Shown one piece after another: positions 4,415-29,130 of a DNA stretch of 64,000 nt. Position 1 is the stretch's first letter, and every line of letters starts with the position of its first letter. The notes beneath the pieces were generated by a model, which did not search any database, was not told the origin of the DNA, and was given only the letters and a program-made list of their open reading frames with translations. The translations under genes and the position numbers were made by a program. This DNA is from an uncultured Lachnospiraceae bacterium (GTDB lineage Bacteria > Bacillota > Clostridia > Lachnospirales > Lachnospiraceae), in contig CANOEC010000018.1 of assembly GCA_947564735.1 (NCBI GenBank), positions 1 to 64,000 on the forward strand, written 5' to 3'.

Positions 4415-5059
4415 TCACAGCATCAAGTTCCATCCACCAAACAAAAACTTTAACAGGTTTATCTTAACCAGAATCAAGAAAAGTATCAGTGATAATATGC
4501 ATACAGATAGATATCGCTTCTTTCTGATAACCACTAAAATGATGATCCAGCACAAATAGACGGCTTGTAACAATAAATCTGATTCGCAGGAAACATACGC
4601 TTCCGAAGCGATGACTGCAATTGGTATTGCTGCACAAAAATCAGCAAACAGCCCTTCACCATGCGCAAACCACACAACAAAACCACATAGCGGAGTGAGC
4701 AGGGCGCATAAGCTCCAGAAAATAATCTGCCGCTTCGGGAAAAAATGCAGGAAATAAATCGTATAAATGTAATATGTAAAAAGCATTGAACCAAAAAAGG
4801 CAAACACGCGGGTTGCCGCCAAACCGGGCGTTCTGGCATAGACTGCCAGAAGCGTAGCAACAAACACCCAGATACCGAGTCTCCCGCCAATACCATCAAA
4901 AATTTGATTTACCCTAGGATTATCTACCAGTTTTGCCAGTATGCCTAATATCATACCAATGATAATCGCCAGAAGCACTGAAAAAAACTTTTGCTTTAAA
5001 CTTGTTTTCTCTGCATTTCTTATAGGTTTTCGCTTTTTTAACTCATGTGGTGCTCTCAT
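4415..5059 (-). CDS. Polytopic membrane protein, DUF6518-like
   Basis: A small integral membrane protein of about 214 residues. After a basic N-terminus of about 20 residues there are six or seven hydrophobic segments, among them FFSVLLAIIIGMILGILAKL, IWVFVATLLAVYA and the very hydrophobic C-terminal YLSVCILSLILFLILV. Start 5059 is preferred because GGAAGG lies just upstream. The layout recalls the DUF6518 family of unknown function, but that match is from memory and weak. It lies 34 bp downstream of the next gene on the same strand and is probably cotranscribed with it. Confidence 0.6.
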   Translation of the reverse strand: MRAPHELKKRKPIRNAEKTSLKQKFFSVLLAIIIGMILGILAKLVDNPRVNQIFDGIGGRLGIWVFVATLLAVYARTPGLAATRVFAFFGSMLFTYYIYTIYFLHFFPKRQIIFWSLCALLTPLCGFVVWFAHGEGLFADFCAAIPIAVIASEAYVSCESDLLLQAVYLCWIIILVVIRKKRYLSVCILSLILFLILVKINLLKFLFGGWNLML

Positions 5060-5093
5060 GGTTTTCCTTCCGGTGTTTTTCATTTCGGGGCAT

Positions 5094-5708
5094 CTACCTT
5101 CTTTTATCTCCCCTGCTTATGGTATCTTGAAGAAACTTGTTATAGAGTTCATCCTCACTAAGTGTATTATCCTCTTCAATCAGTGTCGTTAAATCAACTT
5201 TCCCTTCCAGATACCTATCCCAAAACTCCTCATGCTTCAGATATGCCCTGTAACGAAAGACAAAATGACCTGCTGCTTTATCTTCATAATTATCAAACAG
5301 CTTATCACATCTCTCCATCTCCTCAGCCGAGAGGGTTTTACTCCATAAAGCATGCCTGCCGGGACGGTTGTCGTTCACATCGACGCAGCTAACCTCTCCC
5401 GTATCCATATGAAAATAAAACGAAACGCCATTGGAAAGAGACGCCACTTCAATCTCCGTTACCTTTGTCTCTCCGTCCAAAGAAGCTGACTGCCCTACTC
5501 CAAGAAGCGCCTTACTCGAACCGCCAAGCCTCTCATATGCTTCCTGCGTCGAAATCCCGGAATCCTTAGCGCTTACACTCTGGACATCCTCATAAAGCTG
5601 TTCTGCCGCATTTCTCTGATAATTCGTTTTGTTCCGAACATGGTTCTGCTTATCTGTCTGCTGTATACTCTTGTAAGTGCGCAAACCATTACCGATAATT
5701 GTACTCAT
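5094..5708 (-). CDS. Unknown soluble protein of about 204 residues
   Basis: Not a family I can name. It is hydrophilic with no signal peptide. The N-terminal third is rich in Q, N and K (YKSIQQTDKQNHVRNKTNYQRN). A central part with SNGVSFYFHMDTGEVSCVDVND looks like a compact beta domain, and the C-terminus is acidic and helical. Start 5708 is chosen because AGGAGGG lies 9-10 bases upstream; an in-frame start 30 bases earlier lacks a ribosome site. It is the first long gene downstream of the duplicated leader at about 5.9-6.0 kb, from which it is probably transcribed. Confidence 0.55.
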   Translation of the reverse strand: MSTIIGNGLRTYKSIQQTDKQNHVRNKTNYQRNAAEQLYEDVQSVSAKDSGISTQEAYERLGGSSKALLGVGQSASLDGETKVTEIEVASLSNGVSFYFHMDTGEVSCVDVNDNRPGRHALWSKTLSAEEMERCDKLFDNYEDKAAGHFVFRYRAYLKHEEFWDRYLEGKVDLTTLIEEDNTLSEDELYNKFLQDTISRGDKRR

Positions 5709-5886
5709 AAATACATAGCCCTCCTTTTCATATTGCATGTTGTACTATTGCAAAGGATAAAGGCTCCATATGATTCCTCCGTCAATCAGAATCATCATGC
5801 TCTCCTATCGGTCCAAGCATTATCATTTAAATACAATATTCATACCACCTATTATCCTTTTGCAGATATCCCTTCGTATTCCTTCA

Positions 5887-5976
5887 TTATCCCTCCTCCC
5901 TGATTGAACAAAATGTTAAAATAAAAAAGTTGTAACTAATCGGCGTTCTCATCTCCTTCCTAATGCATTTGCCCAT
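5887..5976 (-). CDS. 29-codon small ORF in duplicated leader (copy B)
   Basis: Encodes a 29-residue peptide with a basic N-terminus and hydrophobic tail. Both this ORF and the 29-codon ORF at 10225-10314 have the pattern M-x-K-x-x-R-x-x-M-R-T, and the nucleotide similarity extends upstream. Its last codons contain GGGAGGAGGG, a strong Shine-Dalgarno for the ATG that overlaps its stop (TAATG). In this copy that downstream frame is only 11 codons long, whereas in copy A it is a secreted protein. Whether the peptide is a product or only a translational coupling device is not decidable from sequence. Confidence 0.4.
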   Translation of the reverse strand: MGKCIRKEMRTPISYNFFILTFCSIREEG

Positions 5977-6006
5977 ATGCTTAATGCCAACTTTCCATAT
6001 ACATAC

Positions 6007-6019
6007 TATGTACTACATA
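6007..6019. promoter_or_regulatory. Palindrome TATGTA-C-TACATA in leader B
   Basis: A perfect 6+1+6 inverted repeat lies about 29 bp downstream of the -10 box of the leader-B promoter. It contains TACTACA, the half-site known from staphylococcal BlaI/MecI operators, but differs from the two operators of the local BlaI-like gene. A repressor site is an inference. Confidence 0.35.
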
Positions 6020-6047
6020 TTTTTCTTGTTTATTTTTTGCCTCTTTT

Positions 6048-6076
6048 ATTATATCATCTATATTCTGCTTTCACAA
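6048..6076 (-). promoter_or_regulatory. Promoter of leader B
   Basis: Minus strand TTGTGA (6076-6071) and TATAAT (6053-6048) with 17 bp between them. Transcription would start near 6041, run through the conserved leader and the 29-codon ORF, and continue to the genes at 5708 and 5059. A further 12-bp hairpin (6082-6093 with 6099-6110) lies just upstream. Confidence 0.6.
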
Positions 6077-6130
6077 ATCACGCTAGCATTTTAACTAATA
6101 AAATGCCAGCATCTTTTCTTTAAATAAATA

Positions 6131-6182
6131 GCAAAAATCGAGGATAAAATTCGATTCTGCTTGTTTTTTCCTCGATTTTTGC
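6131..6182 (-). terminator. Terminator of the ABC transporter operon
   Basis: A 13-bp perfect inverted repeat, GCAAAAATCGAGG with CCTCGATTTTTGC (6131-6143 and 6170-6182), has a 26-base loop and U-rich sequence on both strands. It closes the minus-strand operon that starts near 10.4 kb, 40 bp past the last stop codon. Confidence 0.65.
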
Positions 6183-6221
6183 ATGAAATTAGTATTGGCA
6201 TCTGTCAGCTATACGCCTGCT

Positions 6222-6749
6222 TTACCCGGCAAGATAAGAATACAGCTTTTCATCCACTATCACTTGTGGATATGGATCGGATATATCTGGAATATTCTTA
6301 AGAATAACAGTTACAACACCTGCGTCATTCGTCTCACAAACTTCTGTCGTAAAACATTTGCCCGGCGCCTCGTCCTGCTGTGTGTTCGGATAACTCGTCC
6401 ACATTCTAATAGCATCTAAATCGTGGTCATATATCAGAATTTTAGCACATAGCTTCCCATCTATTATATTCACAATCCGCAAAACTCCCCTTTCCCTGTT
6501 ATGTGCCTTGTTCAAAAAAGATACTATTTTATCATCTGGTGAATCCATAATCTGTGATACATCAATATAACCTTTTTCTTTTAAGTCATCCATTGAAGTA
6601 CTGACATCTAATTTCAATAACTCATTCCTTGCATCTTCTCCTGTATATCCATTTCCTGCTACAATAATTACAATAAGCACAGCTATTGCACAGATACCCA
6701 AAATACAGAGCCATCGATTAAAACTTAACTTTTTCATTTTTTTAATCAT
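6222..6749 (-). CDS. Membrane-anchored protein of unknown function
   Basis: 175 residues. One N-terminal membrane segment (WLCILGICAIAVLIVIIVAG, about residues 13-32) after a basic stretch predicts an anchored, mostly extracytoplasmic protein. The outer part is acidic, contains two cysteines and has no motif I recognise. It is the last gene of the minus-strand operon with the ABC transporter and ends just before a terminator. AAGGGAG lies close to the first ATG; the second ATG four codons later is a possible alternative. By position it may be an accessory or immunity-type protein of the system; that is inference. Confidence 0.6.
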   Translation of the reverse strand: MIKKMKKLSFNRWLCILGICAIAVLIVIIVAGNGYTGEDARNELLKLDVSTSMDDLKEKGYIDVSQIMDSPDDKIVSFLNKAHNRERGVLRIVNIIDGKLCAKILIYDHDLDAIRMWTSYPNTQQDEAPGKCFTTEVCETNDAGVVTVILKNIPDISDPYPQVIVDEKLYSYLAG

Positions 6750-6815
6750 GCTCCCTTCTCAGCCTGCGATGTTTGGGACTGATGCCAACGACGTCTGCAC
6801 AAACTCCTCGTGCTC

Positions 6816-6959
6816 CTACGCTTGTGTCTTATAGTTCTTTACCCTGTCTTTAAATAATGTTTCATCCATATCATAGTTCCCTAAGATTCCTGTTATCCTA
6901 AAGATACCACAATCTGTAAACAGAAGCGATTGCAAGGGCGCTGGTAAAGCATCAATCAT
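6816..6959 (-). CDS. 47-codon small ORF coupled to the ABC ATPase
   Basis: A small frame begins 10 bp after the ATPase stop codon. The ATPase stop lies inside its ribosome site (TAAAGGATATGGAATG), which favours translational coupling. The peptide begins MIDALPAPLQ and ends KNYKTQA, has one cysteine (residue 17), a moderately hydrophobic first half and a charged C-terminal helix. No family is recognised. The good Shine-Dalgarno and tight spacing argue for expression, but chance cannot be excluded for 47 codons. Confidence 0.4.
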   Translation of the reverse strand: MIDALPAPLQSLLFTDCGIFRITGILGNYDMDETLFKDRVKNYKTQA

Positions 6960-6969
6960 TCCATATCCT

Positions 6970-7611
6970 TTATACTTTTAACCGCAATGCATGTTCGTCA
7001 ATCTCATAGACTTCCGTACACAAATCTTCAATATCCTCATGATTATGCGAAGTCATAAGAATTGTAACTCCCTCTTTTTCATTCAATTTCTTTAACAATG
7101 CTCTCATTTCAACAACCGTTTCAGCATCTATTGCGTTCATCGGTTCATCCAAAATCAGCAAATCCGGCTTTTCCATAATTGCCTGTGCAAGTGCAAGCCG
7201 TTGCTTCATACCCAAGGAATACTTCCCAACCTTCACCTTTAATGCCGGATCCAGCCCCACCCTTCTCATAACATTTTCCAGTTCATCTCTGCCCACCACG
7301 TTCCTGACTTTTGCAATGATACTTAAATTCTCAATACCCGAACATTGCGGAAGGAATCCGGCGCAATCTAAAATTACCCCAATATTCTGTGGAAACTTAC
7401 CATCTTCAACGTCATTGCCATCAACTTTTATGACGCCTTCATCCGGCAGGACTAACCCACAAATCATTTTAAGCAGGACGCTCTTACCCGTTCCGTTTTT
7501 ACCAACTATACCACAGACAGCGCCCTTATTCACATCGAAATCTGCACACTCAAACAACATATTTTTCCTGTATGCTTTTGATAATCCTCTAATCTCAACC
7601 ATCTTTCCCAT
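6970..7611 (-). CDS. ABC transporter ATP-binding protein
   Basis: 213 residues, a complete single nucleotide-binding domain: Walker A GKNGTGKS (about residues 38-45), signature YSLGMKQRL, Walker B LLILDEP, and the switch histidine in MTSHNHED. Of the family seen with ABC-2 type permeases for export of, or resistance to, peptides and other substrates. Its start overlaps the stop of the upstream permease gene (TAAATG), so it is translationally coupled to the three membrane proteins encoded just before it. Likely energises a transporter built from those proteins. Confidence 0.9.
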   Translation of the reverse strand: MGKMVEIRGLSKAYRKNMLFECADFDVNKGAVCGIVGKNGTGKSVLLKMICGLVLPDEGVIKVDGNDVEDGKFPQNIGVILDCAGFLPQCSGIENLSIIAKVRNVVGRDELENVMRRVGLDPALKVKVGKYSLGMKQRLALAQAIMEKPDLLILDEPMNAIDAETVVEMRALLKKLNEKEGVTILMTSHNHEDIEDLCTEVYEIDEHALRLKV

Positions 7612-8277
7612 TTATGCTTCTCCTTGTACTCTATCATAAAAATTTGCACCTGCTTGATTCATCACTATGATAAACAGTACCCCATTTAATGCTAAACCGG
7701 ACATCAGACTTATCTGTAAATTTTTTGTGATACCTCCCACTGTAAATCCCAATAACAGACGCATTCCCAAGACAACCAGAAAACTAATTTCCGCCTTTTG
7801 GAACATACAATATAACAGATATATGAGCAGACATAAATTAAGCGCTCCTACGGTTTCGTTCAAAAAAATTTCCCACAATTCCTTCTGTCCAAAGCACCAA
7901 AGCACATCGCTAAATCTTGCGCCATTTTGACAAAACATCACTGCAAAACTCAAAAATTGTACCCCGAAATAAACTGCGGTGCCCATTATGCATTTACCGT
8001 ACTGCCTTATAAACATTTTTTTATAATTGCGTTCCCTAATAAAAAGATACAGCATGAAACTCTGTTCGAGCCAAAGCATTTTCCATAAGATATAAAGCCA
8101 TATAACGATTCGCATAGCAATCCAGTGAATACATACCGTATCAAATTTATCAAAATCCACTGTCCATGCGGATAATAATTCAACAAAATTATTTTTCTGA
8201 CCCAGTATCGTTTCTGAATACAGCCATAACGACACATTGAGAACGACAAAGCAGCATATACATTTAATTATCCTCAT
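7612..8277 (-). CDS. ABC-2-like membrane protein 3
   Basis: About 222 residues with six hydrophobic segments (for example IIKCICCFVVLNVSLWLY and IVIWLYILWKMLWL). Start 8277 has AAGGA about eight bases upstream and overlaps the previous gene by 14 bp; an in-frame upstream ATG has no ribosome site. No sequence motif beyond the membrane topology. Position between two more membrane proteins and the ATPase indicates a permease subunit of the same exporter. Confidence 0.65.
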   Translation of the reverse strand: MRIIKCICCFVVLNVSLWLYSETILGQKNNFVELLSAWTVDFDKFDTVCIHWIAMRIVIWLYILWKMLWLEQSFMLYLFIRERNYKKMFIRQYGKCIMGTAVYFGVQFLSFAVMFCQNGARFSDVLWCFGQKELWEIFLNETVGALNLCLLIYLLYCMFQKAEISFLVVLGMRLLLGFTVGGITKNLQISLMSGLALNGVLFIIVMNQAGANFYDRVQGEA

Positions 8278-9007
8278 ATACGATATCCTTATTTCCAAAT
8301 ATCCGGTCTCCAACATACCAAAATACGCAAATCAAAATTATCCAATATTCCCAATTAATCCGATACCTGCTGGCTTCCCACCCGTATAACTGGAATGCAA
8401 TCCTCTGCCATGGAAACCATTTTGCCAGCCAATAAACTCCCGTCTTCACAAGCATAAGATTTACCAGCGGCATTCCCACCGTAACCAAAACGTGCAACAC
8501 TCTGTTTTTTAAAACAATGCCGAACAGATTGTATACCATAATAATCAGAACGGCATAGAAAGCAATATTCACGCATTGCATTACAATAATTTTCGCAGAT
8601 ACCTGCTGAAAAAACACTGTCTCCTGTCCTGACAAACCGCATCCTTTTCCATATAAAAATACAAGCAACGGAAGTATCATGATGCATCCGGTTGTATATA
8701 CTACCTTAGCGCATATATTCGCCAGATAATATTCCGTTCTGCTGTTATGCCTAAGCAGTATAACATATCTGTTCTGTATCCCATGTTTATCATTGATGAC
8801 TTCAAGCACCAGAAATGTGGCAAGCATCAAAACATTATACATATTTGTCAAAAAATACATTATAAATTCACACAAGTTAGTGCCGCCATAATCCCTGACA
8901 TAGACATGAAGATTGACATCCGTACATAATATTGTGCCAACCAGAAAAATCATCATTTTTTGCATTGAAAAAAGCTGTGCTAATTCGTTCCTAACTTTTG
9001 TGAGCAT
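8264..9007 (-). CDS. ABC-2-like membrane protein 2
   Basis: About 248 residues with six predicted membrane segments, starting MLTKVRNELAQLF, a short cytoplasmic amphipathic stretch typical of ABC-2 permeases. The start overlaps the end of the upstream gene and has AGGTGA just before it. Three different membrane proteins of about 220-255 residues with one ATPase is an unusual subunit number for an ABC-2 exporter. Confidence 0.65.
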   Translation of the reverse strand: MLTKVRNELAQLFSMQKMMIFLVGTILCTDVNLHVYVRDYGGTNLCEFIMYFLTNMYNVLMLATFLVLEVINDKHGIQNRYVILLRHNSRTEYYLANICAKVVYTTGCIMILPLLVFLYGKGCGLSGQETVFFQQVSAKIIVMQCVNIAFYAVLIIMVYNLFGIVLKNRVLHVLVTVGMPLVNLMLVKTGVYWLAKWFPWQRIAFQLYGWEASRYRINWEYWIILICVFWYVGDRIFGNKDIVYEDN

Positions 9008-9758
9008 AAAAATCACCTATCAAATATAAGTTGATGCCAATCAGAATCAATATTCCATCATAAAGCGGTATCCCCCAATATCCCAAAGCGCCTCCAAAAT
9101 ATTGTCCGATTGCAAAAAGCGTAATCGCATTAAACGCTTGATTATACAATTCCAATACCGATGCCGAAAAAATACAATATGCAAAGGGAATCAAAACCGC
9201 AACATACCGGTTCTTTACGACAGCGCTGACTCCCAAACCCACAACTGCAAATACGCCACTCTGCAATCCTGCATTAAAAGTGTAAATCATCCCATATAAA
9301 AAGGGATTGCTCTTGTACAAGTCTTCCGCAAAAAACAATCCATAAATAATAGGGTATTGTGCGTCTCCGGTTCCTATCACAAATATTATAAACATATACC
9401 ACGTAAAGCACGCGGCGAAAACTGCCAGAAACCCCGACAGAAATACAGAAATAATTTTGGCAATCTGATATCGTCTATGCCCTGTCTTTAATATATAAAG
9501 ATAATAAAAACCGCTGTCTGTCTCGTCTCTGTAAGATAATGCATACGGAATACATGCGATAATCGGGAAAAATATTGCCATCAATGACGCAGTACCATAT
9601 ACAAGAGACATCAGATACTTCTCAAGATAAGTCCCACCATGTGAAAATCCCGATACATAATCCCAGCCGCCTATGATAAGTGATATCAGACTAATCATAT
9701 ATGCCGCCAACATTCTTCCGGATATAACTGCCCTTTTTAACTCTTTTGTTATCATCAT
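8991..9758 (-). CDS. ABC-2-like membrane protein 1
   Basis: 255 residues, six hydrophobic segments. The N-terminus (ITKELKRAVISGRMLAAYMISLISLIIGG) is the usual cytoplasmic helix plus first membrane segment of an ABC-2 permease, and the loop SYRDETDSGFYYLYILKTGHRRYQIAKII matches the cytoplasmic coupling region of that fold. GGGGAA precedes the start. It follows the small secreted protein gene by 56 bp in the same operon. Confidence 0.7.
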   Translation of the reverse strand: MMITKELKRAVISGRMLAAYMISLISLIIGGWDYVSGFSHGGTYLEKYLMSLVYGTASLMAIFFPIIACIPYALSYRDETDSGFYYLYILKTGHRRYQIAKIISVFLSGFLAVFAACFTWYMFIIFVIGTGDAQYPIIYGLFFAEDLYKSNPFLYGMIYTFNAGLQSGVFAVVGLGVSAVVKNRYVAVLIPFAYCIFSASVLELYNQAFNAITLFAIGQYFGGALGYWGIPLYDGILILIGINLYLIGDFYAHKS

Positions 9759-9814
9759 ATTTCCCCATAAAGTTGTGCCGGGAAATCCGGCACAACCTGT
9801 TTTCGATTTATTGT

Positions 9815-10228
9815 TTACGTATTCGTAATATAATCAGGATTCCAGTTCCCCCACGTCCTCGTATTCGTAAAGTTCGTAAGTGCGGTCGATATTCTTAATC
9901 TGACTACTCTGCCCTTCATCGCAACGGGGTCATGATATGGCATGTAAATTGCCCTTGCCGAATTATATGTTACTTTATCCGTCACTCTGTTGCCGTTAGA
10001 GTCCTCTATCCAGCAAGTTAAAGAACGTCCATCCTGTACTTCAGCTACCAAGTTACTTGCCGCCTCTGTCCCTTCCTTCACAATCCCGGCTGAAATATAA
10101 TCCCCGGTCTTCGTAATATACACCGGTCCATAAGAACCCGTATTACTTGCATTTGCAACAAGAATATTTCCAAACGCGAGCGCAAGTACACTTACTAATA
10201 AAATGCTTTTTCTGACTTTCATTTTCAT
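9815..10228 (-). CDS. Small secreted protein (possible peptide substrate of the exporter)
   Basis: 137 residues. A Sec signal peptide (MKMKVRKSILLVSVLALAFGNILVANAS) precedes a mature part of about 109 residues that is rich in T, N, Y, W and R, lacks cysteine apart from one, and ends in a Trp-rich tail (TRTWGNWNPDYITNT). It recalls small secreted DUF2712 or lactococcin-972-like proteins found beside ABC transporters in Firmicutes, but I cannot confirm a family. Start 10228 has AGGAGG upstream, and its ATG overlaps the stop of a 29-codon ORF (ATGA). It is the first full-size gene of a BlaI-operator-controlled operon. Confidence 0.7.
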   Translation of the reverse strand: MKMKVRKSILLVSVLALAFGNILVANASNTGSYGPVYITKTGDYISAGIVKEGTEAASNLVAEVQDGRSLTCWIEDSNGNRVTDKVTYNSARAIYMPYHDPVAMKGRVVRLRISTALTNFTNTRTWGNWNPDYITNT

Positions 10229-10314
10229 ATTATCATTCCTCCTATCATACACAAATTGGTTACATATAAACTAATATAGTCCGTTCTCATCCCCCTTCTT
10301 CTTAATTTACTCAT
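10225..10314 (-). CDS. 29-codon small ORF in leader (copy A), coupled to the secreted protein
   Basis: The peptide starts MSKLRRRGMRT and ends in a hydrophobic IGGMII. Its last codons contain the AGGAGG ribosome site of the next gene and its TGA overlaps that gene's ATG, a classic coupling arrangement. The sister ORF at 5887-5976 has the same length and the same M-x-K-x-x-R-x-x-M-R-T pattern. There is no strong ribosome site of its own, so the frame may be a control element more than a product. Confidence 0.45.
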   Translation of the reverse strand: MSKLRRRGMRTDYISLYVTNLCMIGGMII

Positions 10315-10385
10315 ATGCTTGGCACCAACTTCCCATATGCATAAATTTCATACGTTCTATCAGCGCCTGCCGGCAAAGCATATTA

Positions 10386-10403
10386 GTAAAATATTTATTT
10401 TAC
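10386..10403. promoter_or_regulatory. BlaI-type operator at the secreted-protein operon promoter
   Basis: A perfect inverted repeat, GTAAAATA-TT-TATTTTAC, lies immediately downstream of the -10 box of the minus-strand promoter and so covers its start site. The half-site matches the operator on the other promoter of this divergent region, consistent with one repressor controlling both. Confidence 0.7.
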
Positions 10404-10406
10404 AAA

Positions 10407-10435
10407 ATAATACATCCCTCCCCAAAATTTGTCAA
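10407..10435 (-). promoter_or_regulatory. Promoter of the secreted protein/ABC operon
   Basis: Consensus TTGACA (10435-10430) and TATTAT (10412-10407) on the minus strand with exactly 17 bp spacing. Start near 10400 gives a leader of about 170 nt before the secreted protein, containing the 29-codon ORF and the conserved leader element. Confidence 0.8.
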
Positions 10436-10453
10436 CATTTTTCTACATTTTTA

Positions 10454-10482
10454 TTGACATAGTAAATAGAGTATTTTACTAT
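10454..10482 (+). promoter_or_regulatory. Promoter and operator of the BlaI/BlaR1-like genes
   Basis: TTGACA (10454-10459) and TACTAT (10477-10482), 17 bp apart. An inverted repeat of ATAGTAAATA with TATTTTACTAT (10459-10482) fills the spacer and the -10 box. Binding of the BlaI-like product here would repress its own genes. The half-site TAGTAAA is shared with the operator at 10386-10403. Confidence 0.8.
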
Positions 10483-10528
10483 ATATTATAGACAAAATGT
10501 GTAATCATAAAGAAATCAAGGTGCCTAG

Positions 10529-10912
10529 ATGAATTACGACCTAAAACCAAAAGAATATGAAATCATGAAATTTATATGGGCGAGCGCCCCCGAAGGCGTG
10601 ACCTTTGGTGAAGTCCACGACTATGTAAACAGTCTGGGAAAAAAAGAGTCCCGCCAGCGGGTAAACTGCTTTATACAATCACTGCTTGGCAAGGGAGTCC
10701 TTTCCGCAGCAGGAGAAGACCGCCACAAATTATATACTCCTGCCATTTCCAAGAAAGACTACGACCAACTGCTTGCTGGCAGACTTCTGAATCAGTTATT
10801 TGATGGTTCTCTGACAACATTTGTATCGGCATTGTCCGGCGGGAACGGTCTGTCCGATGAAGATGCAAAAGAGCTTCGCAAACTGTTACGAGAAAGGAAT
10901 AAGAAGAAATGA
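10529..10912 (+). CDS. BlaI/MecI/CopY-family repressor
   Basis: 127 residues. The N-terminal winged helix (LKPKEYEIMKFIWASAPEGVTFGEVHDYVN) and the RQRVNCFIQSLLGKGVL recognition segment are typical of BlaI/MecI/CopY penicillinase-type repressors, which bind palindromic operators as dimers and are inactivated by proteolysis. The C-terminal half is the dimerisation region (ISKKDYDQLLAGRLLNQLFDGS). AAGGTG precedes the ATG. The gene overlaps the following protease gene by four bases. Palindromic operators on its own and the divergent promoter define its probable regulon. Confidence 0.9.
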   Translation: MNYDLKPKEYEIMKFIWASAPEGVTFGEVHDYVNSLGKKESRQRVNCFIQSLLGKGVLSAAGEDRHKLYTPAISKKDYDQLLAGRLLNQLFDGSLTTFVSALSGGNGLSDEDAKELRKLLRERNKKK

Positions 10913-12258
10913 ACATCTTTTTTGTTATGTCCATAAGCGGCAGTATTGTTTTTTTCTTATATTTATTGATGAAACCATTCTCCAACCGTTTTCTTTCTGC
11001 CAGTTGGCAATACAATTTTTTAAAAATATGCCTTTTATTTTATCTTGTACCTTATCAATTTCTTCAAAAGAAATACTTTACCCTATATAACGCCCTGCTC
11101 GGGAGCGAAGACGCCGCAAGTTCTTTACATAGCGGAATATTAAGCTTCAAGGACTATAATACCATTTATGTATCCTCCGACGGCAGAATACATTATAAGT
11201 ACGGACTACCGCTTTTTGTTTTCTTATCTGTATGGCTTGGCGCCATTGCCTTTATGTTGTACCGGCAACTTAAAAAGTACCGTTCATGCCGCAGCAATCT
11301 GTTGCTGCTCTCCGAGACTGCAGATACCAGCCCGGAATCTCTGACTGCAACAACACAATATTCCGGCATTACTCCGCCCAACGCAAAAAGTGTGAAACAA
11401 ATTGTCATTTGCCCGTTTATTAAATCGCCGATTACCATCGGCTTGTTTCATCCGCGCATTATCCTGCCCAAAGAAGACAGCCCCAAGAACTTAACCCTCT
11501 ATCTATCCCATGAGCTGTCACATATCAAAAGTCACGATGCAATGTGGAAATTTACTGCTTTTTTGGCAATCCTGCTCCATTGGTATAACCCTTTAGTGTA
11601 TGTTCTTTTTTATGAACTAGACACTGTATGCGAAAAGCATTGCGATGAAATAGTAACCAAGCCATTAAGTGATTCTCAAAAGCTGTATTATGAGAACCTG
11701 ATTATAAACGCCGCTCAAAACCAGACCGCCGTCAGTTCCTTATTTGCCAACACTTTTTCAACCAATAAAAAACAAACAAAGGAGAGAATACTATTTATGA
11801 CAAGAAAAATTTCCAAATTCACTCACCACAAATTAATCACTGCTTTACTGATGGGACTCGTCATCCTGTCCATGCCGATCTCGGTACTTGCCTATGAACC
11901 TGTGAATGTATATCATGACCGACAACCGTATAAGCCAAATGAAACTATGATGGAAATCATTCTTAACGACACACAAAGTTCCCTCATTTCAGATTCCACA
12001 TCAACGCAACTTGATTTTACATTATCAGACGAAATCTTTGTTGATGAATCCGGAAACCAGTACGTGATTGACGCCGGAAACGAATATTCCCCGCGTTCAT
12101 GCACGCATGATTACAAGAATGGTTCCCGATACACTCACGAAACAAGCGGCAGCGGTTGTTCCGTTTATGTTTATGAAGGCTCATATTGTAAAAAATGCGG
12201 ATTCTGCTTACAGGAAACCTTTATAAGTAAGACTACATACGCAAAGTGCCCGCACTAA
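10909..12258 (+). CDS. M56-family membrane metalloprotease, BlaR1-like sensor
   Basis: 449 residues. Four membrane segments surround a zinc protease site HELSHIKSHD (about residues 201-210), preceded by the family motif ITIGLFHPRIILP; a probable third ligand is in the CDE of EKHCDEI. In BlaR1 and MecR1 such a protease is activated by an outer sensor domain and destroys the repressor. Here the outer part after the last membrane segment (about 110 residues) is not a penicillin-binding domain. It ends in a Cys/His-rich module with several CxxC-like pairs (residues about 390-449, YCKKCGFC) that may bind metal. Its ligand is unknown. Confidence 0.85.
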   Translation: MNIFFVMSISGSIVFFLYLLMKPFSNRFLSASWQYNFLKICLLFYLVPYQFLQKKYFTLYNALLGSEDAASSLHSGILSFKDYNTIYVSSDGRIHYKYGLPLFVFLSVWLGAIAFMLYRQLKKYRSCRSNLLLLSETADTSPESLTATTQYSGITPPNAKSVKQIVICPFIKSPITIGLFHPRIILPKEDSPKNLTLYLSHELSHIKSHDAMWKFTAFLAILLHWYNPLVYVLFYELDTVCEKHCDEIVTKPLSDSQKLYYENLIINAAQNQTAVSSLFANTFSTNKKQTKERILFMTRKISKFTHHKLITALLMGLVILSMPISVLAYEPVNVYHDRQPYKPNETMMEIILNDTQSSLISDSTSTQLDFTLSDEIFVDESGNQYVIDAGNEYSPRSCTHDYKNGSRYTHETSGSGCSVYVYEGSYCKKCGFCLQETFISKTTYAKCPH

Positions 12259-12282
12259 TTACTTTTTGTTTTCATTGTATAA

Positions 12283-12322
12283 GGCGCCGCCCAATCACCT
12301 AAAATGCTGATTGGACGGCGCC
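12283..12322 (+). terminator. Terminator after the BlaR1-like gene
   Basis: GGCGCCG (12283-12289) pairs with CGGCGCC (12316-12322) and the stem continues inward as CCAATCA/TGATTGG. It is a strong GC-rich hairpin 24 bp after the stop codon, followed by a modest pyrimidine tract. Confidence 0.65.
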
Positions 12323-12386
12323 GTTCCTCTATCATTGTTTTAATATAAACATAAACACAATCTCCGAATCCATTTTTAACCTTTTG

Positions 12387-12957
12387 CTATTGTATAATTT
12401 CCCAATATCCGTTTTTCGGTGAACCATGGCGAATCAATATTCCTCGTTCTTTGAGCTTCTTAATATTGGATGCAACGTTTCTGTCCGCCACACCAATCCG
12501 CTCCGCCAGCTTCGCTGCATCAGCCTGCACTTCTGACATTGAACCACGATAAAGATTTACTCGAAACATATCATCAAAAACCTTCATCTTTCTATTGCAA
12601 GTCTTTCCCCGGTAACATATATCTAACCCTTTTCGCTTTTCCCTGCTGTACAAGCTCATTTTGCTCTATCATTCTTTTTATCAGACGGGAAGCGCTAGAA
12701 GCGTTGATTCCCAATTTCTCCTCCACATCAGCCCGAACAACAAAGCCGTTTTGTTTTACGAGTTCAATCACCCTCTCTTCATTGCCCGCCCGTATCTGTC
12801 TTTTCGCCGCCAAATGACTCACATTGATATTCGGCAGTGCAATTTTAAAGGCATTCGTCGTATTTTCAATCAACGGCTTTATGTCCTCCTCACCGTATGC
12901 CCCCATAATCTTGCGTATACCGGTTCCATAGGCTTCTATCAAACGTCGCACGGACAT
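12387..12957 (-). pseudogene. Remnants of AlbA_2-type regulator C-termini
   Basis: Two overlapping frames each look like only the C-terminal part of an AlbA_2 ATP-binding protein. The first (12592-12957) opens with RRLIEAYGTGIRKIM, the usual motif just before the winged helix, and ends with a winged helix. The second (about 12387-12590) restarts inside the family at KVFDDMFRVNLYR and ends with another winged helix. Neither has the AlbA_2 domain or the middle part, so these are leftovers of one or two decayed genes related to the intact gene at 87-1340. Confidence 0.65.
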
Positions 12958-14156: not shown

Positions 14157-14654
14157 ATGAATATAACTTCCATCACAATACAACAAGTACCCCATAATCA
14201 TCCGGATTTTCTTCAATTATGCAAGGAACTGGACATATTTCTCAACAAGGCAATCGGCGGTGAAGACAAACGGGAAAAGTATAAGAAATACAACCACTCA
14301 GACACCATGGACTATGTAGTGATTGCCTATGCCGGACAGCAGGCTGCCGGATGCGCGGCTCTCAGGGAATATTCCGAAACAGAAATAGAAGTGAAACGGG
14401 TTTTTGTGCGGGAAGCCTGCCGTTGCCAGAACATCGGCGGACGGCTATTGGAAAATTTAATCGAATATGCACAGAATGCGGGCTATCAATACATGCTTCT
14501 GGAGACCGGCGCATTTCTTTCCGCCTCTGTACGCTTGTATAAACGTTACAGTTTTACCCAAATTGAAAATTACGGCGATTATAAGAATATGCCGGAATCG
14601 CTCTGTATGGGACGAAGGTTAAAACAAATCACTATGACTTCCTGTCCTAATTAA
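14157..14654 (+). CDS. GNAT-family N-acetyltransferase with altered 3' end
   Basis: About 165 residues. The acetyl-CoA-binding motif is seen in VKRVFVREACRCQNIGGRLLENLIEYA, and the YMLLETGAFLSASVRLYKRYSF stretch is the usual last part of the fold. Start 14157 has GGAGG six bases upstream. The last part of the coding sequence (14566-14624) is repeated almost exactly at 15242-15300, where it would end LKGIHTR instead of LKQITMTSCPN. The present end was therefore probably created when the toxin-antitoxin segment entered at the gene's 3' end. Substrate unknown. Confidence 0.8.
   Translation: MNITSITIQQVPHNHPDFLQLCKELDIFLNKAIGGEDKREKYKKYNHSDTMDYVVIAYAGQQAAGCAALREYSETEIEVKRVFVREACRCQNIGGRLLENLIEYAQNAGYQYMLLETGAFLSASVRLYKRYSFTQIENYGDYKNMPESLCMGRRLKQITMTSCPN
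14566..14624 (+). repeat. 59-bp direct repeat, left copy (3' end of GNAT gene)
   Basis: Identical at 57 of 59 positions to 15242-15300 (two G/A differences). The two copies bracket the toxin-antitoxin module. This copy is in frame within the GNAT gene and also supplies the stop codon of the convergent toxin gene. Confidence 0.9.
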
Positions 14655-14897
14655 TTTTAATATCAGTATTTCCTTTTCAACTTTGTAAACAAGCAGCCAA
14701 TCCGGTTCAATATGACATTCACGCATATTCTTATAGTTGCGAGAATTAACTAATGCATGATCCTCATACTTTTCCGGCAGCGACTGCTCATTTACAAGCA
14801 GTCTGATAACCTCCTGCAGCTTATCGGGGTTACAGCCCCGCTTCATTGCCAGTTTATAATCTTTCTTAAATTGTCCGGTAAACTCTGGCTTAAGCAT
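14619..14897 (-). CDS. YafQ/RelE-family mRNA interferase toxin
   Basis: 92 residues. The sequence LKPEFTGQFKKDYKLAMKRG, the RECHIEPDWLLVYK core and the C-terminal IRTGSHSDLF with its catalytic-type histidine are characteristic of YafQ-like RelE-superfamily ribosome-dependent endoribonucleases. The gene overlaps the upstream antitoxin by eight bases and runs convergently into the end of the GNAT gene (36-bp overlap), its stop codon lying inside the repeat. Confidence 0.88.
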   Translation of the reverse strand: MLKPEFTGQFKKDYKLAMKRGCNPDKLQEVIRLLVNEQSLPEKYEDHALVNSRNYKNMRECHIEPDWLLVYKVEKEILILKLIRTGSHSDLF

Positions 14898-15156
14898 TCA
14901 GTTCCTCCATTAAAGCCTCTACACTGTCAAACGGTCCATATATATCTTCATCATTCTCTGCCGCCTGCATTGCCGCCTGTGTGACTGCATTCGGAACGTT
15001 CCTGCTAATAGAAAACGGTATCTGCTGTTCCCGCACAGACTGTCTTAAAAAAATAGTAAACGCCGTCGAAAGACTCATACCCAAATCTGCAAATAAAGAA
15101 TCTGCCTGTACTTTTAAATCTTCATCCACCCGAAAGGTAACATTTACGCTTTTCAT
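14890..15156 (-). CDS. RelB/DinJ-family antitoxin
   Basis: About 88 residues. The N-terminal ribbon-helix-helix (KSVNVTFRVDEDLKVQADSLFADLGMSLSTAFTIFL, given here in outline) is typical of RelB/DinJ; the acidic C-terminal part (DEDIYGPFDSVEALMEEL) is the toxin-neutralising arm. Of several clustered ATGs, 15156 sits nine bases after AGGAGG and is preferred; the two upstream ATGs are too close to it. It should bind the YafQ-like toxin and repress the shared promoter. Confidence 0.88.
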   Translation of the reverse strand: MKSVNVTFRVDEDLKVQADSLFADLGMSLSTAFTIFLRQSVREQQIPFSISRNVPNAVTQAAMQAAENDEDIYGPFDSVEALMEELNA

Positions 15157-15177
15157 AATCATCATCCTCCTATAAGC

Positions 15178-15206
15178 AGTATATTTTACACTATAATAAA
15201 TGTCAA
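15178..15206 (-). promoter_or_regulatory. Promoter of the toxin-antitoxin module
   Basis: Consensus TTGACA (15206-15201) and TATACT (15183-15178) on the minus strand, 17 bp apart, 20-odd bases upstream of the antitoxin start. It lies within the inserted segment, so the module brought its own promoter. Confidence 0.75.
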
Positions 15207-15241
15207 CATATCATGTGTATTTGATGTGCATTTTATGTGCA

Positions 15242-15300
15242 AAAATTACGGCAATTATAAGAATATGCCAGAATCGCTCTGTATGGGACGAAGGTTAAAA
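15242..15300 (+). repeat. 59-bp direct repeat, right copy (orphan GNAT 3' end)
   Basis: The second copy of the GNAT gene end, with no gene attached. Read in the GNAT frame it continues after LK as GIHTR and a stop, probably the ancestral terminus of the acetyltransferase. The segment between the copies is 617 bp and holds only the toxin-antitoxin genes and promoter. From 15301 to 15469 I see nothing but the leader of the next gene. Confidence 0.85.
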
Positions 15301-15469: not shown

Positions 15470-16306
15470 ATGAACCAGACAGAAATCGGAAAGTTTATTG
15501 CCAGATGCCGCAAGGAGAAAAAACTGACGCAGGCACAGTTGGCAGAAAAACTTGGTATTACGGACAGAGCCGTATCGAAATGGGAAACCGGAAAAAGTAT
15601 GCCGGACTCGTCTATCATGTTAGAGCTTTGTGAGATACTGGGAATCACGGTAAACGAATTGTTGAGCGGGGAGGAAATCGACATGGAGATGGGAACTTAC
15701 GAAAAAAAGGCCGATGAAAATTTAATTGCCTTAAAAAGAAAAGATGAAAATAACATGACAAAAAACATGCTTCTTTCCATCATTTTTTCGGTAACGCTTT
15801 TAATCGGAATTATGGTATGCCTTATCTGCAACCTTGCAATATCCGGCAGCTTAACATGGTCGCTGATTCCGGTCAGCTCCATTGTGTTTGCTTGGGTCAT
15901 ATCTTTTCCAAGCATTATCATGGGAAAAAGGGGAATCACTGTCAGTCTGATATCATTAAGCATTTTTGTGATTCCCTATTTATTTTTGCTGAGCAGATTC
16001 ACCAACACACCTGCAGTATTTTCAATTGGCTCTGCCGTCTCGGTGGCTTCCATCATTTTTCTGTGGGTTGTAACTGCTGTATTCTACCGTATTGGAAAAA
16101 CAAGAAAGCCCGCCGCGTTAGGAATCATTTTCCTAGCAGCCATTCCCTTTCTGTTTATCCTCAATGCCATCCTGTCAAAAATGATAGCAGAACCAATTCT
16201 CGATATATGGGATATGCTGACTGTTTTTATCTTGTTGATATCGGCATTTGTTTCCTTTCTTTGCGACTACGCAAGGCAAAAGATAAAAGAAAGAAAAGCG
16301 CAATGA
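15470..16306 (+). CDS. XRE-family HTH regulator with C-terminal membrane domain
   Basis: 278 residues. A canonical Cro/CI helix-turn-helix occupies residues 4-62 (RKEKKLTQAQLAEKLGITDRAVSKWETGKSMPD in outline). After a charged linker there are six hydrophobic segments (from about residue 100). Such membrane-tethered XRE proteins are common in Lachnospiraceae and probably sense an envelope signal; the target is unknown. AAAGGAGAAG precedes the ATG. Its last 80 bp overlap, on the opposite strand, the end of the exosortase-like gene. Confidence 0.85.
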   Translation: MNQTEIGKFIARCRKEKKLTQAQLAEKLGITDRAVSKWETGKSMPDSSIMLELCEILGITVNELLSGEEIDMEMGTYEKKADENLIALKRKDENNMTKNMLLSIIFSVTLLIGIMVCLICNLAISGSLTWSLIPVSSIVFAWVISFPSIIMGKRGITVSLISLSIFVIPYLFLLSRFTNTPAVFSIGSAVSVASIIFLWVVTAVFYRIGKTRKPAALGIIFLAAIPFLFILNAILSKMIAEPILDIWDMLTVFILLISAFVSFLCDYARQKIKERKAQ

Positions 16307-17036
16307 CGCTGCCGCATACGCACATAACAACCGCCGCGTACTGTCCGAATCCGTCCCATTCATTATGATATATTCTTTTGACAAAAGGCAGCACCAGCAC
16401 AACGAGAAGATACCAGAATGCCGGAACGAGCACCCTGCAATGTCCCCGCCCTCTTACGATGTGCCCACGCATCTGCACTGCCGACAGGTAAATCACACAT
16501 AAAAAAACAAAATACGTTACCGTTCCGATAAGTGTGTGAAGTCTGTCTCCATTCAGCCAGCCGTCCATCAGATGCATGTTATCCAAAGCAGGCGGCAGGA
16601 AAATAGACGCTGTAATTCTAATTCCGTTCACAAAAATTGTGGATACATATGCAAAAACCATACTAAAGCCAATCCACATACCTTTTCTTCCCTTCTCCGC
16701 CGGAGCATCCGGAGATAAAAAGGAAAATATCAGCGTCAAAAACACAATCAGCATAAATCTGCTGCCCGAACACGAGGGGGCAATCAGAAACTGATGATAA
16801 TGATTCACGTACCCTTGATGTGGAAGATACTCAAACGAAATGCCGCCAAGGACACTGACCCACCGAGCGGTGGGCGCCAGTATCCATTTAAGGGCGTCAC
16901 TGTCATTTGTCCTGCAAAAATGATTCATCACAAGAGCTGCTATGGCTGCCGCCGCAAAAGGCAGCCGATTGGCGCAAATGATTCTTTTTATCTGTTCTAT
17001 CCGGTTGCAATTTTCTAAAAGCTGCTCCTGCTTCAT
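16227..17036 (-). CDS. Exosortase-family membrane transpeptidase (XrtK-like)
   Basis: 269 residues with about eight membrane segments. The exosortase/archaeosortase triad is recognisable: Cys89 in APSCSGSRF, Arg140 in NGIRI and His167 in GDRLHTLIG. Exosortases cut C-terminal PEP-CTERM-like signals and transfer the protein to an envelope acceptor, the Gram-negative counterpart of sortase. From memory, the XrtK subfamily acts on a single neighbouring VIT-domain protein with an MSEP-type signal. The gene just upstream here is a VIT/VWA protein with SEP before its C-terminal membrane helix. AAGGAG precedes the start; the 35-bp gap indicates an operon. Confidence 0.75.
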   Translation of the reverse strand: MKQEQLLENCNRIEQIKRIICANRLPFAAAAIAALVMNHFCRTNDSDALKWILAPTARWVSVLGGISFEYLPHQGYVNHYHQFLIAPSCSGSRFMLIVFLTLIFSFLSPDAPAEKGRKGMWIGFSMVFAYVSTIFVNGIRITASIFLPPALDNMHLMDGWLNGDRLHTLIGTVTYFVFLCVIYLSAVQMRGHIVRGRGHCRVLVPAFWYLLVVLVLPFVKRIYHNEWDGFGQYAAVVMCVCGSVIALFFLLSFALRSRKERKQMPISTR

Positions 17037-17071
17037 CCCGTTCTCTCCTTATTGATTTTATTTCCATTTTT

Positions 17072-19093
17072 CTACATCTTTTCTTCCGCGTTCTTTTCCA
17101 AATAACGCTTTTTTACTACCGCCGTCAAAACCGCTATTGCCGCCATCATACAAAGCAGCATTACTTCTCCCGGTTCCGAACCGACCCTGTAGCCGACCGC
17201 CAGATTAGACACTTCCAATGGCAGCGGAAGCGGCTGGTCCACATCTGCGGCTTCACCGTCTGGATTGCGGACGACATCTAACACCGCTATGAAGGACGTA
17301 TAGGGCGTTATCATATGATAATCCAGTCCAATCTGCGTTACTTCCTTTTGTACTTCCGGATTATCCCCGCTTGCACCGTAGTCAGTCAGACGCTCCACAC
17401 GTTTGCGCGCCCACAGATACCCTACGGCGTCATTCTGACCGGAAATCGCATCCTCTACCCGAATACTCTCGGAATATGCACCCTGTCCGGTCATTCCGTC
17501 AATCCGGATAGTTCCTTTCGCATCTCCTTTCCACTTTCCAAGCAGTACAATGGGCTTCTGCGCATAAAGCGTAGGGAGCACTGTAGGTTCCACATCATAA
17601 GTGTCAAATCCTTCAAAGGATACCTTGATATCCGTCAATACCGGCGACTGTATGTAGGTGCGGAAGCGCTCCGCCATCTCGCCAGCCTCTTCCTCATCCG
17701 TCACGACGAAGGGTTCCCCCTGTCCGATTGCGGCGATACCATTAATCAGATGACGGTTGACGGCAGACCCGATTCCAAATGAAAAATAATCCGCTTTATC
17801 CAGATTCTGATTCATCAGGTCAAAAACCTCCGATTCGCCATATACATAGCCGTCGCTTATAATAACAATATTGCGGGATGTATTTTCATCCTCGGGAATG
17901 CGCAGCGCATCTTCCACCGCCATGGCAAGCTCGGTTCCCCCGCCGCCTTCCTCTTTTTCAATAATACGTATTGCCTTGTTGATATTTTCTTCCGTAGCCG
18001 GAAGGGAACGCCTTGACATCTGGAAGGAATCCCCCGAAAAAAGTATCAGATTAAAAGTATCTGTCTCACGCAATCCGGAAACCAGATTTTTAATCAGTTC
18101 CTTGGCGGTATCTAACGGAAAACCGTACATGGAACCGGACACATCCAGCACAAATATATATTCTCTCGGCGGCGTATCCTCTATCTCATAGCGTTCCGGC
18201 GGCTGTATCATCAGCATGAATGTATTCTCTTTATCAGTCTGACTCGTAATCAGCCCCGTGTTAATCTGCTCGCCTGTCAATTTATAATCCAGAATAAAAT
18301 CGCGATTGCCGGCATAATCCGACGGATTCGACAGACTGACCTGCGCCTTCGTATTCTCATCCCAATCAACGCTGATTTCATGGGAGCTGCTCGAAAGCGA
18401 TGTAATCGGCACACCGGAAGAAACCGTCACGTTGATATGATACTGGTCGGAAGGTTTTGCGCCCTCCTGCAGATACGGCGTTCCCGCCCATTCTTCACGG
18501 TTTCCGGTATCGTCCAGCACAGGACCGACATACCGGGGACCGACAACAGTCGGAAATACATACTGATATATTCCCTCAACCGGCGTAATCAGCTCCGTAT
18601 AATGCAGCTCGATACGCACCTCGTCTCCGGGCATGATATTGGCGACATCCATCGTAAACACATTCGCTCTCTGCTCAGACAGCATGGAAGCGCTCTTGCC
18701 CTCGCTTTTCGCCGTCTCAAACTCTTCCTTAGCTTCTTCTTTCTCCTTGATGGTCGCCGTCACAGTCTGGTTCCCAATCCGCATCTGCATTCCATGTATC
18801 GTCACCTTCGTCGATGCCGGGAATACATAGCTGGCGTTAATCGGTTTTGTCCCCTCGTTCGCATAGGTCTGCACCACGTAGGTGTCTGCGATAATGCCAT
18901 CAATGTTGGTCGTCACGTCCGTACCCTTCAGCGGAAAACTGTCCACGCCAACCTCTTCACTTTCCACATGAAAATAGGGCGAACGGGTCTTGTCCTCGTT
19001 TTCTTCCTCTTCCTGCGCACATACTGTCGGGCTGTAGCTTGTAAATAACAGCGCCATCGCTAATAAACATACTAATAATCTGTGTCTTTTCAT
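17072..19093 (-). CDS. VIT and VWA domain secreted protein, probable exosortase substrate
   Basis: About 673 residues from the ATG at 19093 (GGAAAGGA upstream). Order: signal peptide (residues 1-26), acidic linker, VIT domain (about 45-170), a beta-rich region, VWA domain from about 311 with an intact MIDAS (DVSGS at 317-321), and a C-terminal tail. The tail has SEP at about 639-641, a membrane helix (about 643-661) and a KKR positive cluster. This is a tripartite sorting signal. VIT/VWA proteins are inter-alpha-trypsin-inhibitor-like adhesion or scaffold proteins. The next gene encodes the putative sorting enzyme. Two hairpins (19116-19137 and 19141-19160) lie in the leader. Confidence 0.85.
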   Translation of the reverse strand: MKRHRLLVCLLAMALLFTSYSPTVCAQEEEENEDKTRSPYFHVESEEVGVDSFPLKGTDVTTNIDGIIADTYVVQTYANEGTKPINASYVFPASTKVTIHGMQMRIGNQTVTATIKEKEEAKEEFETAKSEGKSASMLSEQRANVFTMDVANIMPGDEVRIELHYTELITPVEGIYQYVFPTVVGPRYVGPVLDDTGNREEWAGTPYLQEGAKPSDQYHINVTVSSGVPITSLSSSSHEISVDWDENTKAQVSLSNPSDYAGNRDFILDYKLTGEQINTGLITSQTDKENTFMLMIQPPERYEIEDTPPREYIFVLDVSGSMYGFPLDTAKELIKNLVSGLRETDTFNLILFSGDSFQMSRRSLPATEENINKAIRIIEKEEGGGGTELAMAVEDALRIPEDENTSRNIVIISDGYVYGESEVFDLMNQNLDKADYFSFGIGSAVNRHLINGIAAIGQGEPFVVTDEEEAGEMAERFRTYIQSPVLTDIKVSFEGFDTYDVEPTVLPTLYAQKPIVLLGKWKGDAKGTIRIDGMTGQGAYSESIRVEDAISGQNDAVGYLWARKRVERLTDYGASGDNPEVQKEVTQIGLDYHMITPYTSFIAVLDVVRNPDGEAADVDQPLPLPLEVSNLAVGYRVGSEPGEVMLLCMMAAIAVLTAVVKKRYLEKNAEEKM

Positions 19094-19191
19094 GCTGCAC
19101 ATCCTTTCCTTCATCTCTTAGCGGATTCTTCCTAAGACCCTGCCGGATTCTTTTCCGGCATGTCCTTTACGATAGATGTTACAGCACAAAA

Positions 19192-28907: not shown

Positions 28908-29130
28908 GCCGCTTTCCCCTTTGTACTCTAAATATCTCATTTGTAAATATATCCTGTTCGATTATGCAAATGCTATACTTTATTTAATATACTCATTGTT
29001 ATATTATACTATAAACACCATCTTTCTTAAAGCATTTAGAATAAAAAACTATTATTTTCACAAGTGGAATAATTCTGCCATGACATATTTCAACAGGATA
29101 CACCGCCAGGCAATCAGATGTTTTTCTGCA

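Follow-up and report, generated by a model that had tools for sequence, protein, structure and literature searches.

A predicted BlaI-M56 switch with an operator class of its own and an exchangeable export cargo in a Lachnospiraceae genome

To our knowledge, little is known about the signals that BlaI-M56 pairs sense, and the targets that they govern, outside beta-lactam resistance. The locus described here poses this question anew: what might a BlaI-family repressor and a BlaR1-type protease control when the operon transcribed away from them has no beta-lactamase? The window, i.e. the whole stretch of 64,000 nucleotides that we analysed, belongs to contig 18 of a 4.52-Mb genome assembled in 102 contigs; its features are collected in Table 1, and loci (L) and genomes (G) carry our own numbers. 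An earlier note on this DNA had proposed two promoters pointing apart (TTGACA-17-TATTAT and TTGACA-17-TACTAT), a palindrome on each and a BlaI/BlaR1-type pair next to them, and all of these are present: the palindromes are the 22-bp operators op1 and op2, and family profiles as well as an HEXXH motif identify the two proteins. Its remark that beta-lactamase is missing is likewise borne out, in that family profile searches found neither a beta-lactamase nor a penicillin-binding protein (PBP) domain among the operon proteins. Our preferred reading, to which we assign a probability of roughly 0.6, is that a BlaR1-type BlaI-M56 switch with its own operator class releases a secreted-protein and ABC export cargo of a bacteriocin-like or envelope-shielding kind.

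Table 1. Positions of the features in the window (L028, orthologous locus in G264, a genome of the same genus; L085 and L093, loci in another family of the class and elsewhere in the phylum)
Feature	Position	Strand	Remarks
62-bp copy of operon 5' untranslated region	5944..6005		76% identical; with 10282-10343 brackets the operon
175-aa protein, accessory	6222..6749	-	one probable membrane segment by eye; not found in L028
47-aa ORF, doubtful gene	6816..6959	-	not found in L028
ABC ATPase, LanF-like	6970..7611	-	PF00005 109.2 bits; TIGR03740 152.6 bits, under cut-off 309.75
Permease 3 (perm3)	7612..8277	-	start MRIIKC at 8277 likely (by eye, L028 alignment), open frame from 8316; 48-49% to L028
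Permease 2 (perm2)	8264..9007	-	ATG at 9007 likelier than GTG at 9016 (by eye, L028 alignment); 49% to L028
Permease 1 (perm1), 255 aa	8991..9758	-	no family match; homologues adjoin sec in L028, L085, L093
Hairpin between sec and perm1	9772..9796	none	candidate attenuator setting more sec than transporter
sec, small secreted protein, 137 aa	9815..10228	-	signal peptide by eye; ends TWGNWNPDYITNT; homologues in L028, L085, L093
5' untranslated region of operon	10282..10343		one copy of 62-bp repeat; holds start of 29-codon ORF
op1	10384..10405	none	TAGTAAAATATTTATTTTACAA; operon-side operator, 1 base downstream of minus-strand -10 box
sec/ABC operon promoter	10407..10435	-	TTGACA-17-TATTAT, 11/12 consensus; runs 10435 to 10407
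blaI-M56 promoter	10454..10482	+	TTGACA-17-TACTAT, 10/12 consensus
op2	10460..10481	none	TAGTAAATAGAGTATTTTACTA; blaI-side operator; starts right after plus-strand -35, spans spacer and most of -10
BlaI-family repressor, 127 aa	10529..10912	+	PF03965 72 bits (cut-off 22.6); recognition-helix region SRQRVNCFIQSL
M56 BlaR1-like membrane protease, 449 aa	10909..12258	+	PF05569 114.9 bits (cut-off 31); HELSH at 201-205

Promoters, twin operators and the local repressor

Both operators have the form TAGTAAA-N8-TTTAC[A/T]A and, judged by their positions, sit where bound repressor would block RNA polymerase. Among 26 promoter-like sites in 4900-12500 the operon promoter ranks best and the blaI promoter is tied second, yet shuffles of this stretch average 25.2 such sites, so that promoter matches alone are little proof. 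The operator is far rarer: exact matches across the whole 4.52-Mb genome occur at op1 and op2 only, and with one mismatch there are a few scattered sites whose count is not above the reversed control. At up to two mismatches the window holds five strand-wise matches against 1.23 expected, four of them being op1 and op2 on both strands, and five were likewise reached in 2 of 100 window shuffles; in the intergenic region, none of 1000 dinucleotide shuffles contained a site as good as the better operator.

The untranslated region between op1 and sec gave little beyond its repeat. We rejected a structured leader or Rfam element (fold z -1.05, no Rfam match above the gathering score) and further good genomic copies (only two matches besides the query, E 0.17 and 0.32, in a listing that does not include the copy at 5944-6005). 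The 29-codon ORF proposed as a leader gene is probably not a gene: L027, a related locus in G253, has ACG in place of its ATG, and no clear Shine-Dalgarno sequence was seen by eye.

What ties the operators to this particular BlaI is comparison. GTAAA-N8-TTTAC lies upstream of blaI in the window and in all five subfamily members tested, and upstream of none of the 16 other BlaI-type genes of the genome. The recorded motif KACANNTGTM is absent from the 200 bases upstream of blaI in the window and in the five subfamily members and present upstream of 4 of the 16 others. Since only these four have it, KACANNTGTM does not define the family, and taken together the two counts suggest that varied operators are normal among BlaI proteins. 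The operator recorded for BlaI/MecI/CopY is TACANNTGTA (PMC7253601), and two Clostridium thermocellum BlaI proteins are described as reading GTCTAT- and GACTAT-type repeats (PMC8457756); as these sites differ from it, the TAGTAAA half-site appears to be its own. Hence the earlier statement that BlaI-family repressors bind such palindromes was too loose, while the assignment of the twin operators to the local repressor is strongly favoured. The predicted regulation of both transcripts by the local BlaI at op1 and op2 is well supported by comparison, and the repressor-operator link is the best-supported step of the mechanism that we propose.

The repressor's nearest solved structure is 1sd4, a penicillinase repressor (E 2.9e-4), and in alignment its residues differ from those at what we take to be the cleavage site of Staphylococcus aureus BlaI, a point against the cleavage step of our reading. 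Its M56 partner ends in a Cys/His-rich domain; Pfam and a family profile search found no penicillin-binding sensor domain, and the blaR1_generic profile reaches 91.6 bits against a cut-off of 400 over residues 9-325 only. HEL[SC]H is kept in all seven M56 proteins compared (the window's and six relatives), and beyond residue 390 the seven share five Cys and three His residues (C398, H400, H410, C417, C427, C430, C447, H449). Metal, thiol-redox state or a peptide are possible signals for this outer domain. With the 17 BlaI-type hits in the genome (one of them marginal), most of which adjoin an M56 gene, the other BlaI-type genes could engage in cross-talk.

The secreted protein, its transporter and their relatives

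The operon's gene list as first drawn up stands, given corrected starts for sec (now placed at 10228), perm2 and perm3, except that the 29-codon ORF and the two distal small genes are not conserved; the latter (6816-6959, 6222-6749) have no tblastn match in the orthologous L028 at E 0.01. Sec belongs to no Pfam or NCBIfam family and resembles no known bacteriocin family. Identities to L028 are 72% for sec, 71% for perm1 and 75-76% for the ATPase, the differences being mostly silent (pN 0.16-0.18 against pS 0.73-0.86, the latter near saturation). A strong hairpin of partly different sequence stands at the same place in L028 (z -4.0 and -7.3 in the two loci). In bacteriocin operons such hairpins allow more product than exporter to be made, and by this analogy the hairpin suggests that the transporter has sec as its product or partner.

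When the proteins of the operon locus were compared with a defence library, only the ATPase matched and the other seven did not; plasmid and viral collections yielded no relative. Elsewhere in the window, the N-terminal third of a 959-aa protein (26061-28940) resembles the DS8 antiphage family, though its 122.8 bits fall far short of the cut-off of 790, and at 16227-19114 an exosortase K (TIGR04287, 108.8 bits, over cut-off) stands beside a surface-type protein (TIGR03788, 414 bits, under cut-off).

Beyond the genus, sec is scattered. Its search matched 1 of 200 family genomes, this being the window's own, and three genomes in each of the samples of 341 class and 398 phylum genomes, own included. 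Full-length relatives are found in L085 (24% identity) and L093, where sec is followed by homologous perm1 and LanF-like ATPase genes and by one and two further permeases, respectively, in a different order in L093; the perm1 matches (E 6e-13 and 4e-7) come from a comparison with nine sequences only. No BlaI is among the ORFs listed for either locus. G980 has two sec places, with ORFs listed for one of them (L093), and the single TGA there is the gene's own stop. Two weak matches, one per sample, were set aside, i.e. G649, where the match lies inside a 788-aa protein, and G1041, where it lies at a contig edge with the downstream genes out of view.

A second operon of related make-up was met in G267, a genome of the same genus, where L033 (4872-11078) has on one strand a lipoprotein-like gene, three permeases, an ATPase, BlaI and an M56-M23 protein. 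Its ATPase is 49.5% identical to the window's and its BlaI 19%; upstream, a KACANNTGTM site is present and the window motif absent. The M56 protein ends in an M23 peptidase domain of the peptidoglycan type (Pfam, 106 bits), which hints at cell-wall sensing. Of the 11 distant permease loci read (L029-L039), no other has BlaI, and the flanking sequence examined for each of the 16 other BlaI-type genes in the window's genome holds no ATPase of the two cargo kinds at E 1e-8. Hence, BlaI-M56 control of such transporters may have arisen, or been kept, at least twice.

The window's genome has yet another row of comparable genes on contig 67 (L031, 5117-9126): a small secreted protein, a 275-aa protein, two permeases and a LanF-like ATPase, without BlaI and, by eye, adjoining phage-like genes. 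Comparison gave no support for its 133-aa secreted protein as a sec relative (hhalign probability 0.1, no match in sequence comparison) despite the permeases and LanF-like ATPase that it precedes.

Spread of the switch, exchange of cargo and remnants

Members of the BlaI subfamily (71-83% identity, all 127 aa) occur in 6 of the 77 other genomes of the genus, not counting a 38% identical BlaI in G261, and in none of the 396 other genomes of the family sample at E 1e-22. The twin pattern GTAAA-N8-TTTAC-N40-70-GTAAA-N8-TTTAC is found in 5 of the 78 genomes of the genus and each time at this locus, against 0 of 78 for the reversed control; in the family sample it occurs in the window's genome and one other of 397, with the reversed control in two. 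G253, one of the five, is the source of L027 by position and sequence. Subfamily genomes without the exact pair are G264 and G210, whose op2 is one base off, and G238, cut by a contig end.

Layout was scored in seven loci (the window, L025, L027, L028, L068, L069 and L070), leaving out L071, where the contig ends, and L026, where a deletion removes most of the second operator; the L026 operators score 12 and 10 of 14, a pair of scores equalled in 1 of 1000 shuffles. In all seven, op2 begins immediately behind the -35 box, and op1 comes 0 or 1 base after the -10 box in six and 5 bases after it in L028. On either side the best promoter is spaced by 17 bases (where promoters tied, a spacer of 17 was preferred), with scores from 8/12 (L028, operon side) and 9/12 (L027, blaI side) up to 11/12. 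L068 and L069 being near-identical, these are fewer than seven independent cases. The operators stand 66-81 bases apart depending on the locus, which suggests that each acts on its own promoter. By comparison, repressor subfamily, M56 partner and two operators are one unit conserved across species. The complete arrangement, which the earlier note suggested seeking in other genomes, is not confined to the window, being present in 2 of 78 genus genomes (own and G264). More generally, these comparisons reveal a switch whose cargo is exchangeable.

In the window, L027, L068, L069 and L070, M56 adjoins a LysR-family gene (Pfam; 87-88% identical), which makes these five one chromosomal site, and here different cargos stand behind op1. 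In the window it is sec with three permeases and the ATPase; in L068 311-aa and 290-aa proteins, a DUF1430-like membrane protein, an ATPase and a 171-aa protein, the last three of which recur in L069, where the stretch beside op1 falls outside the ORF listing; in L070 a 703-aa secreted-looking protein and 311-, 290- and 286-aa proteins, with no ABC gene in the stretch read; and in L027 only s214. This last is a 214-aa protein of no known family that the window has at 5094-5738, and its place directly behind op1 in L027 suggests that the switch may once have governed it as cargo. L025, which shows no LysR gene in the stretch examined, has an S41 peptidase, a 169-aa protein and a DUF1430-like membrane protein with an ATPase; the membrane protein scores just under the DUF1430 cut-off (27.6 against 28.2 bits) and far under that for bacteriocin-associated membrane proteins (23 against 189 bits), and has 68% identical relatives in L068 and L069.

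The window's own cargo recurs in L028 at another chromosomal place, with FeoA/FeoB-like neighbours by eye. There an IS110-family transposase gene stands between operator and sec and the operon promoter is weak (8/12), so control of the operon may be lost. The window's BlaI and M56 are 81-83% and 55-57% identical to those of species with other or unread cargo and 71% and 50% identical to those of L028. With the switch nearer to species of other cargo and the cargo shared with L028, either switch and cargo have different histories or the other species replaced an old cargo; our small BlaI and M56 trees are compatible with both.

Remnants tell of loss as well. In L027 (7840-8500) both operators have outlasted the loss of most of blaI and of the first part of M56: about 13 blaI codons remain, M56 resumes from residue ~208-228, and there is no operon. 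Likeness to the window resumes inside the 62-bp direct repeat (5944-6005 and 10282-10343) that lies around the window's operon, and this scar fits deletion or insertion by repeat recombination. L026 has kept the cargo side and M56 from residue 272, with no blaI match. Elsewhere in the window, a toxin-antitoxin pair of RelE/YafQ and RelB/DinJ type (14619-14897, 14890-15165; region 14566-15300) is flanked by two 59-bp copies (96.6% identical) of an acetyltransferase-like gene end, by eye, as if it had been inserted with a duplication.

What the switch may do and how it compares with known systems

In the mechanism we envisage, BlaI dimers at op1 and op2 would silence both transcripts until an extracellular signal met the Cys/His-rich outer domain of M56 and activated the protease; BlaI would then be cleaved and both promoters opened. 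The cargo so released would be sec and a dedicated ABC exporter, made up of three permeases and a LanF-like ATPase, with sec presumably made in excess of the transporter because of the intervening hairpin. Most likely, such a cargo would make and export a bacteriocin-like or envelope-shielding protein, the bacteriocin role being assigned by analogy, and related species would appear to re-use the same switch for other secreted-protein or ABC cargo.

Resistance is the classical target of BlaR1 switches, and one may ask if the locus is not a resistance module, whose ABC proteins would remove or dislodge an antimicrobial peptide or lipid-II-binding antibiotic, with sec as decoy or shield, M56 sensing the drug or its damage and nothing attacking others. 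That the ATPase's best family is lantibiotic protection (TIGR03740, under cut-off), that the relatives' cargo includes other ABC genes and that the G267 operon opens with a lipoprotein-like gene rather than a sec relative would agree with this. Against it, sec lies beside the transporter in four diverged loci, and both orthologues have a hairpin between the two; this suits an exported product better than a mere pump. We regard a resistance module as rather unlikely. A good deal less probable is a decaying switch, i.e. a mobile cassette being lost and without present function: remnants (L027, L026), the IS110-family gene in L028 and a repeat around the operon that would favour its deletion speak for decay, but in the window every gene has an open frame, pN is far lower than pS in the conserved ones, and operators and promoters are near consensus. 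Finally, the site is unlike the recorded TACANNTGTA, and a different repressor might bind it with the linked BlaI a mere neighbour. We consider this very improbable, as within the genus the exact twin pattern occurs at this BlaI locus only, none of the 16 other BlaI-type genes has the pattern and the site accompanies this BlaI at another chromosomal place in G264.

Tentatively, we also offer a broader reading, in which a portable BlaI-M56 switch would form a docking site at one chromosomal position, with sensor, repressor and twin operators staying and cargos swapping behind op1. The sec-ABC module, a scattered new family with G-x-W-x-P near the C-terminus, would be one such cargo, and the signal read by the Cys/His domain would be a metal, redox state or an antimicrobial instead of a beta-lactam. 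The locus offers a predicted operator, a predicted one-locus regulon, a sensor domain that differs from the penicillin-binding one and natural cargo variants, through which inducer and cargo-exchange logic become testable; the sec-ABC module, in turn, points to an unnamed secreted-protein family with a dedicated transporter.

Among known systems, staphylococcal BlaI-BlaR1 and MecI-MecR1 are transcribed divergently with operators over both promoters, as in the window. With these systems of staphylococci and bacilli the locus shares a BlaI-family repressor beside an M56 protease with HEXXH; it differs in an operon free of beta-lactamase or PBP domains, in a sensor that has a Cys/His-rich domain where no penicillin-binding one was found, and in an operator reading TAGTAAA-N8-TTTACTA instead of TACANNTGTA. 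C. thermocellum BlaI_0696 and BlaI_1845 resemble it in BlaR1-type partners, a small regulon and paired inverted-repeat sites, whereas their repeats are GTCTAT and GACTAT rather than TAGTAAA; the targets named in that source are their own operon, sensory genes and hypothetical proteins, with no secreted-protein/ABC operon among them (PMC8457756). Our literature search, with most subscription papers beyond its reach, found no published BlaI-M56 switch with such an operon. LanFEG lantibiotic protection systems combine a short ATPase with small permeases; the window's ATPase resembles LanF but scores half of the family cut-off (152.6 against 309.75), its permeases match no family and a secreted protein precedes them. 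Lactococcin 972-type clusters join a small secreted protein to ABC genes, their DUF1430 membrane protein being paired with an ABC ATPase. In L025 the switch has as cargo a protein that narrowly misses the DUF1430 cut-off, whereas neither DUF1430/bact_immun_7tm nor an Lcn972-type peptide was matched in the window operon. Hence, while a BlaI-BlaR1-type switch is itself known, what appears to be new here is an operator class of its own, a sensor domain unlike the penicillin-binding one and an exchangeable export cargo.
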